From positions 1 to 22,254 of the IMG/VR virus record IMGVR_UViG_3300010300_000127: a DNA stretch of 22,254 bases. One strand, 5' to 3'. The position numbers and the translations under genes are program-made. Position 1 is the first letter of the stretch, and every line of letters starts with the position of its first letter. The DNA is from a virus. The notes under the pieces are model-generated. The model did not search any database. It saw only the letters and a program-made list of their open reading frames with translations, and was not told where the DNA came from. Shown piece after piece: positions 1-4,546 of this stretch.

Positions 1-133
1 CCTCCTCTATCTCAAGTACGTCATCCGTCCACTCAGTCAGGCAACGCTTCATCCACTCATCGGGATGAGAATTTACTTTCACGACCATCTTGACAGTAAC
101 TTCTGCTGTCATGATCTCGTTTGCTTTTTCCAT
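1..133 (-). CDS. Small hypothetical protein, cut by left edge
   Basis: The reading frame opens at 133 and runs off the left edge, so only the first 44 residues are visible (MEKANEIMTAEV, then KVNSHPDEWMKRCLTEW). ATG 133 is chosen because CGGAG lies six bases upstream, in the same leader arrangement as its neighbours. It is the last visible member of the leftward array and is preceded on its strand by a repeat copy at 166-196. The visible part is charged, with no signal peptide or membrane segment. I do not recognise the family. Confidence 0.65.
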   Translation of the reverse strand, partial: MEKANEIMTAEVTVKMVVKVNSHPDEWMKRCLTEWTDDVLEIEE

Positions 134-165: not shown

Positions 166-196
166 ATTGAACAGTTTGACATTCCAACTACGTTGA
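166..196 (-). repeat. Array repeat, copy for the gene at 133
   Basis: A 31-bp copy of the array repeat. Read on the minus strand it is TCAACGTAGTTGGAA, two variable bases, then (C)CAAACTGTTCA. This copy has TG as the variable bases and TC in place of CC. It lies 33 bp upstream of the start codon and here follows a hairpin (200-242), not a stop codon. Confidence 0.85.
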
Positions 197-199
197 AAG

Positions 200-242
200 G
201 GACGACCCAATGACTTGCACATTGGTGTGGCTACTGTCGTCC
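200..242 (-). other. Two-part hairpin 3' of the small gene at 249-437
   Basis: On the minus strand the bases after the stop of the 249-437 gene fold into a perfect outer 7-bp stem (GGACGAC with GTCGTCC), a 10-nt bulge on the 5' side, a perfect inner 6-bp stem (CCAATG with CATTGG) and a 7-nt loop. CTTTCAACGTAG of the repeat follows directly. There is no T-run, so it does not look like an intrinsic terminator. The layout matches the tRNA-like element at 1156-1197, but the loop here (TGCAAGT) is not a T-loop. Confidence 0.55.
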
Positions 243-248
243 AGTTAT

Positions 249-437
249 TTACTCTTGTTCCCAAGAGTAAAGCTTTCGGGATCTCATCTTGACTCCACCA
301 AGGGAATCAATCTCTACCGTTGAGACTCTCCCGTAGGCTTTCTTGCTGAGAACATAAGTCCCATAAATGTAGTCATTGATTTTGTATCCCACCGCAAGGT
401 GAAGATTTACTTCATGATCTTGAACATTTACTCCCAT
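249..437 (-). CDS. Small hypothetical protein (62 aa)
   Basis: The 62-residue product starts MGVNVQDHEVNLHLAVGYKI and is predicted soluble, with alternating hydrophobic and polar residues suggesting a small beta-rich fold (LHLAVGYKINDYIYGTYVLS). ATG 437 is chosen over the longer frame that runs back into the repeat because CGGAG sits five bases upstream, as in the sister genes. It is the second-last gene visible in the leftward array. Its stop (TAA) lies outside the repeat, unlike several neighbours, with a two-part hairpin between stop and repeat. I do not recognise a family. Confidence 0.6.
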   Translation of the reverse strand: MGVNVQDHEVNLHLAVGYKINDYIYGTYVLSKKAYGRVSTVEIDSLGGVKMRSRKLYSWEQE

Positions 438-471
438 GATCGCTCCGTTGTGAAGGTGAAGTGTTGACAGT

Positions 472-502
472 AATGAACAGCTTGACATTCCAACTACGTT
501 GA
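472..502 (-). repeat. Array repeat, copy for the gene at 437
   Basis: Copy of the 31-bp element with variable bases TG and a C in place of A (AAGCTGTTCA). The TAG stop of the gene ending at 494 lies inside it. It begins 34 bp upstream of the next start codon, the leader being short and without an obvious stem-loop. Confidence 0.85.
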
Positions 503-757
503 AAGGACAACACAGTGGTGTCGAGAACCAGCAAGATGGCTACCGCAGCAATCGCATGACCGCGAAGAAAAGTCATGGTCCTTGTCTGAATCTCCGCAGG
601 CTACATAGCCTTCAACTGAATCAAGACCATCGTTTATCTCTTTGGTTCTTTGATCTTCAGTAGAAGGATCAATCGCCAGACCAGAGTAGTCTCCGTTGGC
701 AATCACCATCAGACAGTCAACGCAGACCATGAACTCGTCATCAAGAATATCTACCAT
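494..757 (-). CDS. Small cysteine-rich, probably zinc-binding protein (87 aa)
   Basis: The protein starts MVDILDDEFMVCVDCLMV. An N-terminal CVDC pair at about residues 12-15 is followed by ANGDYSG, an acidic middle, and a C-terminal SCDCCGSHLAGSRHHC motif. Small proteins with an N-terminal CxxC and a C-terminal CDCCGSxLxGxRH are common in phages and are likely zinc-binding, of unknown function. ATG 757 is chosen because CGGAG lies six bases upstream; the longer frame from 793 reads through the leader. It ends Ser-Thr-stop, encoded by the repeat itself. The gene at 2346-2633 is a diverged relative with the same two cysteine clusters. Confidence 0.75.
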   Translation of the reverse strand: MVDILDDEFMVCVDCLMVIANGDYSGLAIDPSTEDQRTKEINDGLDSVEGYVACGDSDKDHDFSSRSCDCCGSHLAGSRHHCVVLST

Positions 758-790
758 TGTTAGCTCCGTATTAGAAAGTGATAAGACAGA

Positions 791-810
791 CACTACCCCG
801 CAGGGTAGCG
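791..810 (-). promoter_or_regulatory. Leader stem-loop before the gene at 757
   Basis: CTACCC and GGGTAG pair around a TGCG loop on the minus strand, extendable by G-U pairs to about 8 bp. It lies between the repeat and the ribosome site. No T-run follows, so it is less terminator-like than the stem-loops at 1671-1704 or 2660-2702. Confidence 0.55.
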
Positions 811-823
811 TTTACTTGCCACT

Positions 824-854
824 GTTAAACGGTTTGGACTTCCAACTACGTTGA
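824..854 (-). repeat. Array repeat, copy for the gene at 757
   Basis: Copy with variable bases GT and a slightly altered 3' part (AAACCGTTTAAC). It contains the TAG stop of the gene ending at 846, giving that gene a Ser-Thr C-terminus. Confidence 0.85.
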
Positions 855-1073
855 GGCATGTCGTCGGTGGTAGGAATCAAAGGCTTGCAAAGCCTTCTCG
901 ATCTGCTCCACCGTCCAGTCATGACCCCATAGTCCAGTCCTATCCATCATCTCAACGAGATGCTTCGCAAACCTTGCTTTGCCGGAGTTATCATTGGTGT
1001 AATCACCAAAGTGAATCCGCTCTGCGTCATCCCAGTTATTGGCATAAACAAGGTTTGCAACAACATTCAGCAT
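846..1073 (-). CDS. Small hypothetical protein (75 aa)
   Basis: The product starts MLNVVANLVYANNWDDAERI and ends in a likely amphipathic helix, WTVEQIEKALQAFDSYHRRH, followed by Ala-Ser-Thr. It is soluble, with no membrane segment. ATG 1073 is chosen because TTTTGGAGAATACTG lies directly before it, the same ribosome-site context used by the genes at 2265 and 2633. The longer frame starting at 1193 only translates the repeat. The stop codon lies within the repeat at 824-854. I do not recognise the family. Confidence 0.6.
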   Translation of the reverse strand: MLNVVANLVYANNWDDAERIHFGDYTNDNSGKARFAKHLVEMMDRTGLWGHDWTVEQIEKALQAFDSYHRRHAST

Positions 1074-1104
1074 CAGTATTCTCCAAAAGGGTGAAAAGGT
1101 TGTT

Positions 1105-1116
1105 GCCGTTGTCGGC
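1105..1116 (-). promoter_or_regulatory. Short leader stem-loop before the gene at 1073
   Basis: GCCG and CGGC pair around a four-base loop between repeat and start codon, followed on the minus strand by AACAACCTTTTC. It is the weakest stem in the array. Confidence 0.35.
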
Positions 1117-1121
1117 TCAGT

Positions 1122-1152
1122 AATGAACAGTTTTGGTTTCCAACTACGTTGA
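1122..1152 (-). repeat. Array repeat, copy for the gene at 1073
   Basis: Copy with AC as variable bases and an extra A (CCAAAACTGTTCA). It follows the tRNA-like hairpin at 1156-1197, not a stop codon. Confidence 0.85.
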
Positions 1153-1155
1153 AAG

Positions 1156-1197
1156 GACGGTGGCAGGGAATCGAACCCTGCTAAACCACTCACCGTC
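1156..1197 (-). other. tRNA-like minihelix (acceptor plus T-arm, no anticodon arm)
   Basis: On the minus strand GACGGTG pairs perfectly with CACCGTC (7 bp, acceptor-like). Inside it GCAGGG pairs with CCCTGC around the loop TTCGATT, which fits the tRNA T-loop consensus. The D- and anticodon arms are replaced by nine bases (AGTGGTTTA). No CCA is encoded. It sits between the stop of the 1205-1642 gene and the repeat. It could be a decayed tRNA 3' half, a recombination or attachment relic, or an RNA 3'-end processing signal. The pairing is directly visible; the role is unknown. Confidence 0.5.
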
Positions 1198-1204
1198 AGA
1201 TAGA

Positions 1205-1642
1205 TCAGGAGAACATATCAAGCAATTCCTTGCTTACCTTTTCATTAGCAGCCTTGACATCCGGCTTCGACTGCTTGACTGTCTTCTTTGGAGTATCCTT
1301 CTTTGCAGCAGGTTTTGCTGGTTTCTTGGACTTCAAAGAGACAATCTTGGATCTCTTCTTTGGCTCCGCTTTGGTCTCTCCGTTGACCACTTTGCCGTCT
1401 TGGAACAAGACTCCCTTCTCAGCAGCATCCTCCACTTCGTCCATCATTGTCTGAATCTTGTCAGCATTTTCGATGAACAAGTTAGCCAGATCTGCTATTC
1501 TACCAGTCGTCAAGACGACTTCCTTCCGTCCAGCCTTGACCTTCAAAGCAGGGATTACATTCCCCTTGCTCCCTTTGGGAGCGAAGGTGATTGGTTCGAT
1601 GCTTACGGTTTCCTCAGAGATAACTTCGTTTGTAAATTTCAT
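1205..1642 (-). CDS. Hypothetical protein with Lys/Ala/Pro-rich tail (145 aa)
   Basis: The N-terminal part (MKFTNEVISEETVSIEPITF, to about residue 85) looks like a small mixed fold ending in a helix (IADLANLFIENADKIQTMMD). From about residue 90 to 135 it becomes very basic, with repeated KK, PAK and PKK motifs, then ends KELLDMFS. Such tails resemble histone-H1-like or nucleic-acid-binding tails, so DNA or RNA binding is plausible but unproven. ATG 1642 is chosen with CGGAG 11 bases upstream; GGAGACACC here can pair with flanking bases (ATCGG with CCGAT), which might hide the ribosome site. The longer frame from 1819 reads through the repeat and is not real. Confidence 0.65.
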   Translation of the reverse strand: MKFTNEVISEETVSIEPITFAPKGSKGNVIPALKVKAGRKEVVLTTGRIADLANLFIENADKIQTMMDEVEDAAEKGVLFQDGKVVNGETKAEPKKRSKIVSLKSKKPAKPAAKKDTPKKTVKQSKPDVKAANEKVSKELLDMFS

Positions 1643-1670
1643 AGTATCGGTGTCTCCGATTAGAGAAAGT

Positions 1671-1704
1671 AAAAAGTGAGCCAGCCAACCACTGACCGGC
1701 TCAC
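1671..1704 (-). terminator. Leader stem-loop with T-run before the gene at 1642
   Basis: GTGAGCC and GGCTCAC pair perfectly (inner bases extend the stem with G-U pairs), followed on the minus strand by TTTTTACTTT. It looks like an intrinsic terminator but sits between the repeat and the gene it leads. It either ends upstream transcripts or attenuates the downstream gene. Confidence 0.65.
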
Positions 1705-1705
1705 C

Positions 1706-1736
1706 AATGAACAGTTCGGGGTTCCAACTACGTTGA
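1706..1736 (-). repeat. Array repeat, copy for the gene at 1642
   Basis: Copy with CC as variable bases and a G in place of A (CCGAACTGTTCA). The TAG of the frameshifted gene at 1740-1878 lies just outside it, separated from the TCAACGTAG core by CCT. Confidence 0.85.
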
Positions 1737-1739
1737 AGG

Positions 1740-1878
1740 CTAAAGCTTGACTGCCACAACGCAGGGATCATATCCCTCAAGACATTCTTTGAACTCATCT
1801 TTGCCAAAGAACTCAACACACTCAGCCTTCGTCCACTTGTAAGTGGTTCCAGACTCCAAAAAAGTTACTTCGTACATC
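1740..1878 (-). pseudogene. Small gene (about 45 aa) interrupted by a one-base frameshift
   Basis: ATG 1878 has an excellent array-type ribosome site (TTTTGGAGAGACTG). The frame reads MYEVTF and then meets a run of seven T on the minus strand (1858-1864). As written it stops after 18 codons. If one T is skipped, the frame continues as LESGTTYKWTKAECVEFF and then GKDEFKECLEGYDPCVVAVKL to a TAG at 1740-1742, next to the following repeat, exactly where an array gene should end. This could be an assembly error in a homopolymer, a recent mutation, or slippage on the T-run. I do not recognise the product. Confidence 0.55.
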
Positions 1879-1902
1879 AGTCTCTCCAAAAGAGTTAAAG
1901 GT

Positions 1903-1945
1903 AAAACGATTAGACTGCCTCACCGCAGCGAGGCAGCTTGAATCG
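1903..1945 (-). terminator. Leader stem-loop with T-run before the gene at 1878
   Basis: An inner GC-rich stem (CTGCC with GGCAG, extendable inward) sits inside an outer GATT/AATC pairing and is followed on the minus strand by GTTTTACC. The outer flanks (GTGAGCCGATT and GTCTAATCGTTTTAC) match those of the stem-loop at 2660-2702, while the inner stem differs in sequence yet still pairs. Confidence 0.6.
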
Positions 1946-1952
1946 GCTCACC

Positions 1953-1983
1953 AATGAACAGTTTGGACTTCCAACTACGTTGA
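1953..1983 (-). repeat. Array repeat, copy for the gene at 1878
   Basis: Copy with variable bases GT. It contains the TAG stop of the gene ending at 1975, giving the C-terminus Ser-Thr. Confidence 0.88.
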
Positions 1984-2265
1984 CTGGCTCAGCGAGTCTT
2001 GCCAAAGCTCATGAGCATCAAAGACTTCGGTACATCTAGTGACAAGCTGACCAAAAGAGCTTTCACCATATCCCATGACCGTTGTCATTCTGATCAGCTT
2101 GTAGCTGACATCGACGAAGTTTACTTCGCACCATTTGGCAAATTCAGTCAGCCATTGTTGTGGCAAAGCAAAATCAAAAGATTCTTCCAGCTCTTGAAAG
2201 AGTTCTTGTTTGGTTGGGTTGATTTCTTCCAACTCAGGAATAGTTAGATCATTGAATCTTCTCAT
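1975..2265 (-). CDS. Small hypothetical protein (96 aa)
   Basis: The product starts MRRFNDLTIPELEEINPTKQ and is acidic and probably mostly helical (ELFQELEESFDF, WLTEFAKWCEVNF). It has no cysteine cluster or membrane segment. ATG 2265 is chosen because TTTGGAGAATACTG precedes it, identical to the context of the 1073 start. The longer frame from 2316 is translated leader. It ends SQST, with the last two residues and the stop supplied by the repeat. No family recognised. Confidence 0.65.
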   Translation of the reverse strand: MRRFNDLTIPELEEINPTKQELFQELEESFDFALPQQWLTEFAKWCEVNFVDVSYKLIRMTTVMGYGESSFGQLVTRCTEVFDAHELWQDSLSQST

Positions 2266-2287
2266 CAGTATTCTCCAAAGGTTTGTG

Positions 2288-2316
2288 AAAAACTTGCTGC
2301 CGTCAGTCGGCAACAA
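2288..2316 (-). terminator. Leader stem-loop with T-run before the gene at 2265
   Basis: On the minus strand TTGTTGCCG pairs with CGGCAGCAA (9 bp, one G-U) around a five-base loop, followed by GTTTTTC. Good intrinsic-terminator shape. The 5' arm overlaps the last two bases of the repeat. Confidence 0.65.
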
Positions 2317-2345
2317 TGAACAGTTTGGGGTTCCAACTACGTTGA
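2315..2345 (-). repeat. Array repeat, copy for the gene at 2265
   Basis: Copy matching the consensus with CC as variable bases. The upstream gene stops (TAG at 2346-2348) immediately before it. Confidence 0.88.
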
Positions 2346-2633
2346 CTACCGAAGAATTGCAGTCGGCATGACGAAGTGGTGACGGTATCCTGCCTCACCA
2401 GCCCCACAACAATGACATGGTTCATCTTCGACATACTCCCAGTCTCGATCTTCGTCACCTAATTCTAGGTGACTGCTGTATTCGATCTCCATATTTTCAA
2501 TATTCTCATCAACCATGATGATCCTATCATCCAATTCTTTAGATTCTCCATACTTCGCTTCAAGATCTTCCCATTCATTGACAGCTATTTCATAACAGTC
2601 ATGACAGAAGTGAAGGTGTAAAGGTGTTTCCAT
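2346..2633 (-). CDS. Small cysteine/histidine-rich, probably zinc-binding protein (95 aa)
   Basis: The product starts METPLHLHFCHDCYEIAVNE. A CHDC pair near residues 10-13 and a C-terminal CHCCGAGEAGYRHHF match the two clusters of the array gene at 494-757 (CVDC and CDCCGSHLAGSRHHC), so the two are diverged relatives. The middle is strongly acidic. Zinc binding is inferred from the paired clusters; the function is unknown. ATG 2633 is preceded by CTTTGGAGAATACCG, a clear ribosome site. It ends AILR just before the repeat, without borrowing its stop codon. Confidence 0.75.
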   Translation of the reverse strand: METPLHLHFCHDCYEIAVNEWEDLEAKYGESKELDDRIIMVDENIENMEIEYSSHLELGDEDRDWEYVEDEPCHCCGAGEAGYRHHFVMPTAILR

Positions 2634-2659
2634 CGGTATTCTCCAAAGGTTTGAACAGT

Positions 2660-2702
2660 AAAACGATTAGACCCCACCACCGAAGTGGTGGAGTTTCAAT
2701 CG
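2660..2702 (-). terminator. Leader stem-loop with TTCG loop and T-run before the gene at 2633
   Basis: On the minus strand CTCCACCAC pairs with GTGGTGGGG (one mispair tolerated as T-G) around a TTCG tetraloop, inside an outer CGATT/AATCG pairing, followed by TTTTAC. It is the best terminator shape in the array. Confidence 0.7.
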
Positions 2703-2709
2703 GCTCACT

Positions 2710-2741
2710 ATTGAACAGTTTGGGGTTCCAACTTTAGTTGA
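2710..2741 (-). repeat. Array repeat, copy for the gene at 2633 (variant 5' end)
   Basis: The only copy with an altered 5' end: TCAACTAAAGTTGGAA instead of TCAACGTAGTTGGAA. The stop borrowed by the upstream gene is therefore TAA, not TAG, and its last codons are Val-Asn. The CCCCAAACTGTTCA part is intact. Confidence 0.85.
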
Positions 2742-3048
2742 CAGCTAGTGCTTCGAACTCACGAACCCTGTTCTTGACTTCTGCTTCGAACATTTCTCCG
2801 ATGGTGTCGTACTTCGACTCATCAATGAGGTAAAAAGCTTCGATGCAGATAGATCTCATCTCTCGATACATCTCCTTTCTTTCCTCTGAATCGTAGTGGT
2901 TTCCATCCAAGATCTCATCGCAGAAGACTTCATGCTGAATCCAGTCTGGAAGACTCCAATCCAAGGCTCCGAAGTCCTTCGAAAACATTTGTTTTCGGAC
3001 AGTGTTTGACTTGTCAAAAGACCCAACAAATTTAGCAACATTACTCAT
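2734..3048 (-). CDS. Hypothetical protein (104 aa), first gene of the leftward array
   Basis: The product starts MSNVAKFVGSFDKSNTVRKQ and continues with aromatic-rich, acidic sequence (LDWSLPDWIQHEVF) and a likely helical C-terminal half (ERKEMYREMRSICIEAFYLI). It is soluble and carries no motif I recognise. ATG 3048 is chosen because ACGGAG lies seven bases upstream. A longer frame reaching 3138 translates the repeat. It is the first gene after the terminator at 3212-3245, so its repeat copy (3100-3130) has no array gene in front of it, which indicates that the repeat belongs to the gene downstream of it. Confidence 0.65.
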   Translation of the reverse strand: MSNVAKFVGSFDKSNTVRKQMFSKDFGALDWSLPDWIQHEVFCDEILDGNHYDSEERKEMYREMRSICIEAFYLIDESKYDTIGEMFEAEVKNRVREFEALAVN

Positions 3049-3072
3049 CAGTAACTCCGTTATGTAGAAGAT

Positions 3073-3094
3073 GACCAACCAACGTCGATTGGCC
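3073..3094 (-). promoter_or_regulatory. Leader stem-loop before the gene at 3048
   Basis: GGCCAA and TTGGTC-type bases pair around about ten bases on the minus strand, between repeat and ribosome site. No T-run follows. Confidence 0.4.
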
Positions 3095-3099
3095 TCGAT

Positions 3100-3130
3100 A
3101 GTGAACAGTTTGGGATTCCAACTACGTTGA
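3100..3130 (-). repeat. Array repeat, first copy of the array
   Basis: Copy with variable bases TC, one base different at the 3' end. It is preceded by the three direct repeats at 3134-3202 and the terminator at 3212-3245, not by a gene. Confidence 0.88.
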
Positions 3131-3133
3131 GGT

Positions 3134-3202
3134 CTCACGCACCGAACGCGGGATCACCAACCAATCACCCACCGAACGCAGGAATCACGCACCGAACGCA
3201 GG
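3134..3202. repeat. Three short direct repeats before the array
   Basis: TCACGCACCGAACGCGGG at 3134-3151, TCACCCACCGAACGCAGG at 3165-3182 and TCACGCACCGAACGCAGG at 3185-3202 are near-identical 18-mers with starts 31 and 20 bp apart. They lie between the terminator and the first array repeat. A protein-binding cluster or an activator site for the array is possible. No open frame of interest crosses them. Confidence 0.75.
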
Positions 3203-3211
3203 CGCGAAGAC

Positions 3212-3245
3212 AAAAAAAGGCTACCCTCCGTAGGAGAGCAGCCTT
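3212..3245 (-). terminator. Strong intrinsic terminator of the 208-aa gene
   Basis: On the minus strand AAGGCTGCTCTCC pairs with GGAGGGTAGCCTT (two G-U pairs) around a short loop and is followed by TTTTTTT. It lies 25 bp after the stop of the 3270-3896 gene. Confidence 0.88.
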
Positions 3246-3269
3246 GAAGTTTACCGTTAAACCGTAGGT

Positions 3270-3896
3270 TTACTTTGCAGCATCCATCAGCAACCCTGAA
3301 AGGGTTAGTCGAGTCTTCAACGTTTCAACGTTGTAGTAGAAGGTTGATTGCTTGACCTTGGAAAGCTTCGCTTTCTCGGTATTTGCCAATTCAGGGTATT
3401 GGCAAAAAGCATGGATAACCTTTCTAAGGTTCTTTTGTCGAGGACCACAAAGCGTAAGCTTTACTAGCTGCTTCTCAAATGCTTCAGCATTTTCAGCAGG
3501 GTCAACCTCCGGTTGTTCATTCTGTGGGACTTTGTCCCAAAACTTGTCAGTTCCGTATCGAGAAGCCTCGATACCCTTGGTTGGATTGATGGCTTCGCCA
3601 ACGTCCCAACCACTTACCCTTCGCCGAAAGGCGAGAAGCTGGAATTGCTCTTTCCATTCCGTAGGAATGTCTCCAGTCTCCACCATGGCTTTGCCAAGCT
3701 GCTTCACTGACTCCTCCGTGGCTTCAAGAAGAGCCATCGCACAGTCAGAGAGCCAAGCCTCCAACCGACTGTTCTTCTTCGAAGAACCCCTCAAGCCTTG
3801 ACTCCACTCTTTCAGAGTGTCTTCCAGCCCCAAGCCTCCGGCTTGAACACCATCCCAGATCTTGGCAATCATCTTGCTTTGCAAATCGCTACTCAT
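3270..3896 (-). CDS. Hypothetical protein, possible regulator (208 aa)
   Basis: The product starts MSSDLQSKMIAKIWDGVQAG. The first 90 residues are helical and amphipathic. The C-terminal 45 residues (around KLSKVKQSTFYYNVETLKTR) resemble a helix-turn-helix with a recognition helix followed by a short helix, so DNA binding is plausible but weakly supported. ATG 3896 is chosen because TACGGAGAAAAGCG precedes it; the longer frame from 3956 lacks a ribosome site. It is transcribed leftward from the palindrome-rich region and ends at a strong terminator, so it is a single-gene unit separate from the array. Its position next to the divergent control region would suit an early regulator. I do not recognise a family. 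Confidence 0.6.
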   Translation of the reverse strand: MSSDLQSKMIAKIWDGVQAGGLGLEDTLKEWSQGLRGSSKKNSRLEAWLSDCAMALLEATEESVKQLGKAMVETGDIPTEWKEQFQLLAFRRRVSGWDVGEAINPTKGIEASRYGTDKFWDKVPQNEQPEVDPAENAEAFEKQLVKLTLCGPRQKNLRKVIHAFCQYPELANTEKAKLSKVKQSTFYYNVETLKTRLTLSGLLMDAAK

Positions 3897-3922: not shown

Positions 3923-4063
3923 GCCGATCAACTGCTGTCGGCTTCATGAGCAGCAAGCTGCTTTCGTGCCTGTCTGCGCATATGCGTATAGATCTAGCAA
4001 GCTAGATCGGCGGGGCTAACTGCGGTCGGACTTTTCCGGCAAAACTCCTTACGAAGTAAGGAG
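3923..4063. repeat. Cluster of five inverted repeats
   Basis: Visible palindromes: GCCGA/TCGGC (3923-3942), AGCAGC-AA-GCTGCT (3949-3962), CGCATATGCG (3977-3986), GATCTAG-CAAG-CTAGATC (3991-4008) and CTCCTTAC-GAA-GTAAGGAG (4045-4063). The last is followed on the minus strand by TTTT and could attenuate leftward transcription. Such density within 141 bp is typical of an origin or a multi-site operator. Confidence 0.65.
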
Positions 4064-4403
4064 ATGGGGGCCGAAGGGGGTGGCCGCTCCCCACATGTAC
4101 CCACCCCTATATGTACATTCCACTCTGAGTTTTTGAACGACCCTAGTGCCAAATGGCCTGAGAGGCTCGTACACGCATTTAGCAGCCGAGATGACATCTG
4201 ACACCCGTAATCCATCCAAGAGCGTCACAGAGGCTCCTAGACGCCCTGAGAGCGACATTACGGTTTCCGCCTCAAATCCTATTGCAATCCATTAGAGAGT
4301 GGTGGTAGACTGCGGATCTCTTGCTATTAGCTCCAGCGAGAGGAAGTGAGCCCTTCCAGTGTCTTGCGTGTTCTTCCGGTAATCGAAAAAGTCTGAAGAG
4401 TAC

Positions 4404-4437
4404 CTCCATAAAAAAGCACTGGGAGGGTTTTTTTGTA
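4404..4437 (+). terminator. Weak possible terminator
   Basis: CCTCC and GGAGG pair across a 14-base loop and are followed by GTTTTTTT. The stem is short and no rightward gene lies upstream, so it may be chance or may end a small RNA. Confidence 0.3.
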
Positions 4438-4496
4438 CAAACCGAGGACTTTAGTCCCCAGACGTATTGACTTTAGTCCCCACATGCCTGTACAAA
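4434..4496 (+). promoter_or_regulatory. Paired direct repeats and candidate promoter of the early block
   Basis: TGTACAAA occurs at 4434-4441 and 4489-4496, and between them GACTTTAGTCCCCA occurs at 4447-4460 and 4469-4482. TTGACT (4467-4472) and TACAAA (4491-4496), 18 bp apart, could be a sigma-70 type promoter whose elements overlap the second repeat pair. This suggests an operator-controlled promoter for the gene at 4547. A second TTGACA at 4501 lacks a good -10. Confidence 0.45.
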
Positions 4497-4546
4497 TGCG
4501 TTGACATTGCTTTTTCTGCAATGATTCACGGGCTGAAGGAGATAGC

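Follow-up and report, generated by a model that had tools for sequence, protein, structure and literature searches.

The 22,254-nucleotide (nt) IMG/VR record IMGVR_UViG_3300010300_000127 (hereafter the window, meaning the whole stretch of DNA analysed) spans an entire viral contig and carries an array of nine small leftward genes, each preceded by one copy of a 29-nt repeat. The window also encodes a RecE/exonuclease VIII-like protein, a helicase, a metallophosphoesterase, the major head protein, a portal-like adaptor and a terminase, the last identified from its position and from relatives, with no PHROG match. No match to this terminase was found among 50,697 named phage records, and its alignment against 84,980 prokaryote genomes gave no confirmed relative; the relatives of the virus are all metagenomic viral contigs. 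With 99.99% agreement across 15,982 bases, a second contig (L009) can be assigned to the same virus; it prolongs the sequence rightward, while a search for an extension at the left end found none. Roughly half of the genome may be unseen, as two relatives reach 48 and 55 kb.

Read on the minus strand, the repeat has the consensus TCAACGTAGTTGGAA-N3-CAAACTGTTCA, with three free bases in its middle. Allowing up to three mismatches, this pattern matched eight sites in the window, all on the minus strand, and none in shuffled sequences, while the ninth copy is a 30-nt variant with a 1-nt insertion (TCAACTAAAGTTGGAACCCCAAACTGTTCA) and a changed middle (TCAACTAAAGTTGG). An earlier note on this DNA had rightly counted nine copies before nine leftward genes, but its 31-bp element began 2 nt lower than the true 29-nt one, and its spacer of two free bases matched nowhere. 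Mean pairwise identity among the eight copies is 0.89 within the repeat, compared with 0.28 in the upstream and 0.34 in the downstream flanks; conservation is limited to about 29–35 nt and continues weakly to around position 40, and the flanks are unrelated. The 29 positions hold approximately 43 bits of information, whereas marking eight sites in 22 kb would require 12.4. Such an excess over need is reportedly known for T7 promoters from the work of Schneider and Stormo. The palindrome TTGG-4-CCAA described in the earlier note is present, but perfect in only five of the nine copies. Its suggestion that the repeat be sought elsewhere yielded nothing: a weight matrix found no further copy, whether elsewhere in the window, in L009 or among the relatives, and exact and relaxed patterns run across viral and genome collections returned no real copy. 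One viral match to a loose pattern (L046) was rejected as a single match due to chance, its contig having no other copy.

The array has the same strand and order throughout, with one repeat ahead of each gene in all nine cases. Along the minus strand, each junction consists of the upstream stop codon, the repeat, a leader (containing a hairpin in most units), a Shine–Dalgarno (SD) sequence and the ATG, and an SD-like GGAG and an ATG are present in all array genes. In four cases the upstream stop codon lies inside the repeat, as TAG at repeat positions 7–9 (genes 494-757, 846-1073 and 1975-2265) or as TAA in the variant copy (gene 2734-3048); it otherwise lies 0–3 nt before the repeat in two cases and 52 nt before it in two. 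Copy 1 stands 139 nt past the preceding gene and behind that gene's intrinsic terminator. Because all nine genes have a copy, order and strand are constant and copy 1 follows a terminator, the repeat can be assigned to the gene downstream of it, a proposal of the earlier note that is well supported here.

Table 1 Features of the small-gene array and the region upstream of it.
Feature	Position	Strand	Remarks
Repeat copy 1	3102..3130	-	first in array, after terminator; exact match to TCAACGTAGTTGGAA-N3-CAAACTGTTCA
Repeat copy 2	2712..2741	-	30-nt variant; its TAA is the stop of gene 2734-3048
Repeat copy 3	2317..2345	-	pattern match
Repeat copy 4	1955..1983	-	pattern match; TAG within it ends gene 1975-2265
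Repeat copy 5	1708..1736	-	pattern match
Repeat copy 6	1124..1152	-	pattern match
Repeat copy 7	826..854	-	pattern match; TAG within it ends gene 846-1073
Repeat copy 8	474..502	-	pattern match; TAG within it ends gene 494-757
Repeat copy 9	168..196	-	pattern match
Array gene 1	2734..3048	-	104 aa, no known family
Array gene 2	2346..2633	-	95 aa, CxxC...CxCCGxxxAGxRHH protein; paralogue of gene 494-757, blastp 2e-08
Array gene 3	1975..2265	-	96 aa, no known family
Array gene 4	1740..1877	-	45 aa, no known family
Array gene 5	1205..1642	-	145 aa, Lys-rich tail, no known family
Array gene 6	846..1073	-	75 aa, no known family
Array gene 7	494..757	-	87 aa, phrog_3034-like Cys-rich; homologues in Microbacterium, Pseudomonas, Serratia and Acinetobacter phages
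Array gene 8	249..437	-	62 aa, no known family
Array gene 9	2..133	-	partial, cut by window edge; ATG at 133-131
Leader hairpin, copy 1	3073..3094	-	weak z
Leader hairpin, copy 2	2655..2711	-	z -4.0; begins at base directly after repeat
Leader hairpin, copy 3	2294..2316	-	z -3.6; terminator-like; begins at base directly after repeat
Leader hairpin, copy 4	1900..1952	-	z -4.2
Leader hairpin, copy 5	1675..1705	-	z -4.6; terminator-like (CTTTTTAC)
Leader hairpin, copy 6	1105..1116	-	small; z -2.2
Leader hairpin, copy 7	777..823	-	z -2.2; core terminator-like
tRNA-like minihelix	1155..1197	-	gene 5 stop to repeat copy 6; 7+6 bp, loop TTCGATT, linker AGTGGTTTA
tRNA-like minihelix	199..242	-	gene 8 stop to repeat copy 9; 7+6 bp, loop TGCAAGT, linker AGTAGCCACA
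Intrinsic terminator ahead of array	3217..3245	-	13 pairs then TTTTTGTCTT
Terminator-to-copy-1 gap	3131..3216	-	86 bp, zero TA dinucleotides
Leftward gene upstream of array	3270..3896	-	208 aa, no family; candidate regulator by position only

The array genes are mutually unrelated, with the exception of genes 494-757 and 2346-2633, diverged paralogues that encode a small Cys-rich protein (CxxC...CDCCGxxLAGxRHH) within the one array. Homologues of gene 494-757 occupy two places per record in Microbacterium phages, and a search for direct repeats around homologues of the Cys-rich protein in two phages found nothing comparable to the 29-nt repeat.

Between repeat and start codon lie leaders of 50–78 nt, seven of which contain a hairpin whose sequence differs from unit to unit. 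The hairpin begins 0–2 nt past the repeat in units 826, 1708, 1955, 2317 and 2712, and about 7 nt past it in units 1124 and 3102. Relative to shuffled sequences, folding is strong in the leaders after 1708, 1955, 2712 and 2317, moderate after 826 and 1124, and weak after 3102, with a Stouffer z pooled over all leaders of about -7.5 (an approximate value). Three of these hairpins (1705-1675, 2316-2294 and 811-790) score as intrinsic terminators. Sequestration of the SD by the CCAAA of the repeat was rejected as a general mechanism: units with TTTGGAG would allow it, those with CGGAG would not. In two relatives, G003 and G008, small genes are also preceded by leaders with a hairpin or a pyrimidine tract (CTGTTTCTGTTTT), and the 29-nt repeat is absent; the repeat is therefore lineage-specific and the leader style older. 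In G008 and G003 a pyrimidine tract, CTGTTTCTGTTT, takes the place of the repeat immediately before the small-gene SD (L043:1620, 2390, 3368, 4698; L038:680, 1032).

The region ahead of the array constrains how its first gene can be expressed. The 13-pair terminator with its T tract, which the earlier note had also placed before copy 1, is followed by a gap so devoid of TA dinucleotides that no TANNNT -10 box is possible within it, and the best match in a sigma-70 scan of 3049-3250 was no better than background. Gene 1 must therefore start at the repeat, in its leader or by read-through of the terminator. In contrast, the rightward genes have TTGACT-18-TACAAA and TTGACA-like sites in front of them. 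At the repeats themselves, a tool scan found no sigma-70-like site at any copy, in agreement with the earlier note, nor were SigA-like -35/-10 hexamers 17–18 bp apart present at any of them. Inspection by eye also rejected sigma-54 and ECF-type boxes, none of which occurs in the repeat at the correct spacing. The minus strand of the gap between the terminator and repeat copy 1 (3131-3216) also carries GCGTTCGGTGCGTGA three times, each time imperfectly.

The reading we consider best, and to which we would give about an even chance, is that the 29-nt repeat works as a promoter-like site on the DNA, either the start site or an obligatory activator site for a factor other than host sigma-70. In its favour are the placement of one copy per gene on one strand and in one order, conservation confined to the repeat amid unrelated genes and flanks, the terminator and TA-free gap ahead of copy 1, the excess of information, and hairpins that in five units begin almost directly behind the repeat. 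Transcription would then be started afresh at the repeat ahead of each small gene, with the 5' end of the transcript near the 3' end of the repeat. Most units would thus open with a hairpin that should shield the 5' end, followed by the SD and ATG, and a hairpin at the 5' terminus fits a transcription start near the end of the repeat. A single phage-directed factor could then switch on all nine accessory genes together, and genes could be gained or lost as units of repeat, leader and gene. The earlier note had proposed a promoter for a phage-encoded polymerase or sigma factor, or an activator site, and this is still the most probable explanation, although the enzyme it calls for did not appear: the T7-type polymerase domain PF00940, detected in T7 itself, was not found in the window, L009 or the relatives, where the viral sequence may cover only about half of the genome, and Sigma70_r2 (PF04542), for which cellular controls gave matches in 10 of 14 genomes, was not found in the available records of the virus and its relatives. 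Other observations also weigh against a promoter. The 3' part of the repeat is conserved too, though it is located where a transcribed leader would be expected, the leaders after 474 and 168 have no hairpin (for 168, as judged from the fold of its full length), and similar small-gene arrays occur in relatives without the repeat.

Alternatively, the repeat could act as RNA. Transcripts would read through the junctions, and a protein or polymerase bound to the repeat would gate the next hairpin by antitermination or attenuation, or the repeat would be a processing site, giving every gene an RNA gate of its own. The hairpins directly behind the repeat, the stop codons within it and the tRNA-like elements at two junctions, none of which the earlier note mentions, leave such RNA-level readings plausible. 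This is a considerably less probable explanation, though one with several observations behind it: the three terminator-like leader hairpins lie between repeat and start codon, the repeat itself can pair as UAGUUGG-AAYN-CC(A)AACUG (95% of cells paired), and tRNA-like RNAs between stop codon and repeat at two junctions suggest that transcripts may cross them. However, the repeat hairpin shows no covariation, a comparison in which the 5' arm is nearly invariant and the shuffle control uninformative; two units lack a leader hairpin, and the gap between terminator and copy 1 can hold no -10 box to supply a read-through transcript. Across the whole window, Rfam covariance models matched nothing with an E value up to 1, and an antiterminator of the RAT type was rejected, since the repeat and the terminator stem do not overlap.

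Improbable, in our view, is an operator or stoperator-like site through which a phage repressor would silence the array gene by gene in lysogeny. A long asymmetric site in a single orientation at gene junctions, with a partial palindrome in five of nine copies, is consistent with such a role, but every known copy lies within one array, with none elsewhere in known sequence, one copy per gene before the SD exceeds what silencing needs, and no repressor was identified. The mycobacteriophage stoperator consensus is likewise not enriched at the repeats: the L5 consensus has five window matches with at most two mismatches, none at a repeat. We give slightly less weight still to the proposal that the repeat is mainly a recombination seam, its identity kept by gene conversion and PeSL-like cassette swapping, with no direct role in expression. 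Near-identical repeats do separate unrelated genes, supply the stop codons of four upstream genes and carry information far beyond need, but their strict position ahead of an SD and ATG in every gene speaks against a mere seam, and variant copy 2 gains a stop yet retains CAAC and AGTTGG, which suggests selection on the sequence. Integron attC sites were also rejected, as neither core, GTTRRRY or RYYYAAC, was seen by eye.

Among known systems, T7-type promoters (approximately 23 bp) are also many near-identical sites in one orientation with excess information, but the repeat has no T7 promoter sequence and no GGG start, and the available sequence encodes no PF00940 protein. In the promoter early stem-loops (PeSL) of T4-like phages, a terminator stem-loop is followed by a host-type early promoter, whereas here the repeat precedes the hairpin in all hairpin units and has no sigma-70 box. 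PeSL are modules of promoter and stem-loop thought to drive cassette shuffling (Arbiol 2010 and Comeau 2014, as cited in PMC4503421) and, like the repeat, they occupy junctions of small accessory genes. No relatives sharing the 29-nt repeat, by which shuffling of this kind could be tested, were found. L5 stoperators are similarly short asymmetric junction sites oriented with transcription, but they are 13 bp long and genome-wide, while the repeat measures 29 bp and occurs in a single array. Of the documented systems, the ESAS of Cluster K mycobacteriophages come closest: these are elements of 46–47 bp with SigA-like -35/-10 hexamers and 15–17 bp inverted repeats, lie beside a 13-bp SAS at the start codon and are thought to contain promoters (PMC3203893, PMC11373665). 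Both kinds of element are asymmetric, have inverted repeats in part and are placed in one orientation right upstream of many unrelated small genes. The 29-nt repeat differs in its sequence, in lacking the -35/-10 hexamers and the SAS, and in having a separate hairpin leader behind it; the only window match to the SAS (GGGATAGGAGCCC) has two mismatches, is intragenic and is at chance level. Most phage genes are very small, uncharacterized and grouped in clusters, and it is seldom understood what turns such arrays on. A 43-bit element that precedes all nine genes individually offers an easily testable handle on array control.

The two junctions with a 52-nt gap each contain a further RNA-like element of 43–44 nt that resembles the stacked top half of a tRNA, with a 7-bp acceptor, a 9–10 nt linker and a 6-bp T-arm closing a 7-nt T-loop, and no anticodon arm. 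Relative G008 has exactly the same linker and loop as 199-242 on a different stem, and across three compared copies 9 of 13 pairs were changed on both sides while 97% of cells remained paired. Covariance model and descriptor matches were found in G003, G007 and G008, in Microbacterium phages Fork, Yuma and StevieWelch, and in contig G010 (six matches), with copies at, for example, L043:1577-1619 and 2349, L056:430, 818, 1602, 2148, 2662 and 3279, and L054:6443. The descriptor matched 16 times, including the terminal copy of Fork and one site inside a Fork tRNA gene, compared with no match in reversed sequence, and the minihelix starts 6–10 nt past a stop codon in 9 of the 14 listed copies. A GG in the linker accompanies UUC loops and an AG accompanies UGC loops, a pattern absent from the descriptor definition that looks as if the G18–U55 and G19–C56 contacts of tRNA had been retained.

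ARAGORN and Rfam find nothing at the minihelix sites, where no cloverleaf forms and a 9–12 nt linker replaces the D-stem and anticodon arm, and our literature searches on such minihelices found no description. They appear to be an undescribed RNA family common to unrelated phages. Organelle tRNA punctuation and the tRNA-like domains of tmRNA are comparable in placing tRNA-like folds between genes and in having parts that resemble a D-loop and a T-loop while the complete cloverleaf is missing, but the minihelices are only about 43 nt long, lack an anticodon arm and CCA, and occur in phage small-gene arrays. Our guess is that they may be processing or 3'-end marks; should they prove to signal processing or stability, they would represent a general rule for the ends of phage small-gene messages. 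More speculatively, and with a likelihood we regard as low, the small-gene arrays of diverse phages could share a two-part punctuation, in which a post-stop minihelix would define or process the upstream 3' end and a lineage-specific repeat with its hairpin would gate or start the next gene. The transcription or processing of each accessory gene would then be controlled individually by RNA-level marks outside the known promoter and terminator types.

Several minor features lie outside the array. For the 208-aa gene upstream of it, a search for relatives returned none and the AlphaFold model was uninformative (pLDDT 42); two adjacent palindromes (TGCGCATATGCGTA and GATCTAGCAAGCTAGATC) of operator-like appearance stand upstream of this gene at 3975-4010. 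In relative G003, two blocks of 10–11 bp tandem repeats (TCGGAAAGTTA and TTTTGTCAGG; L038:3255-3600) adjoin a tyrosine recombinase-like gene and resemble iterons. On the plus strand of the window, a hairpin resembling a terminator, with seven consecutive T residues, followed by the TTGACT-18-TACAAA and TTGACA sites, precedes the first rightward gene (4394-4510). GC skew flips near position 4000, so this part of the window may contain an origin or the principal region of divergent control.

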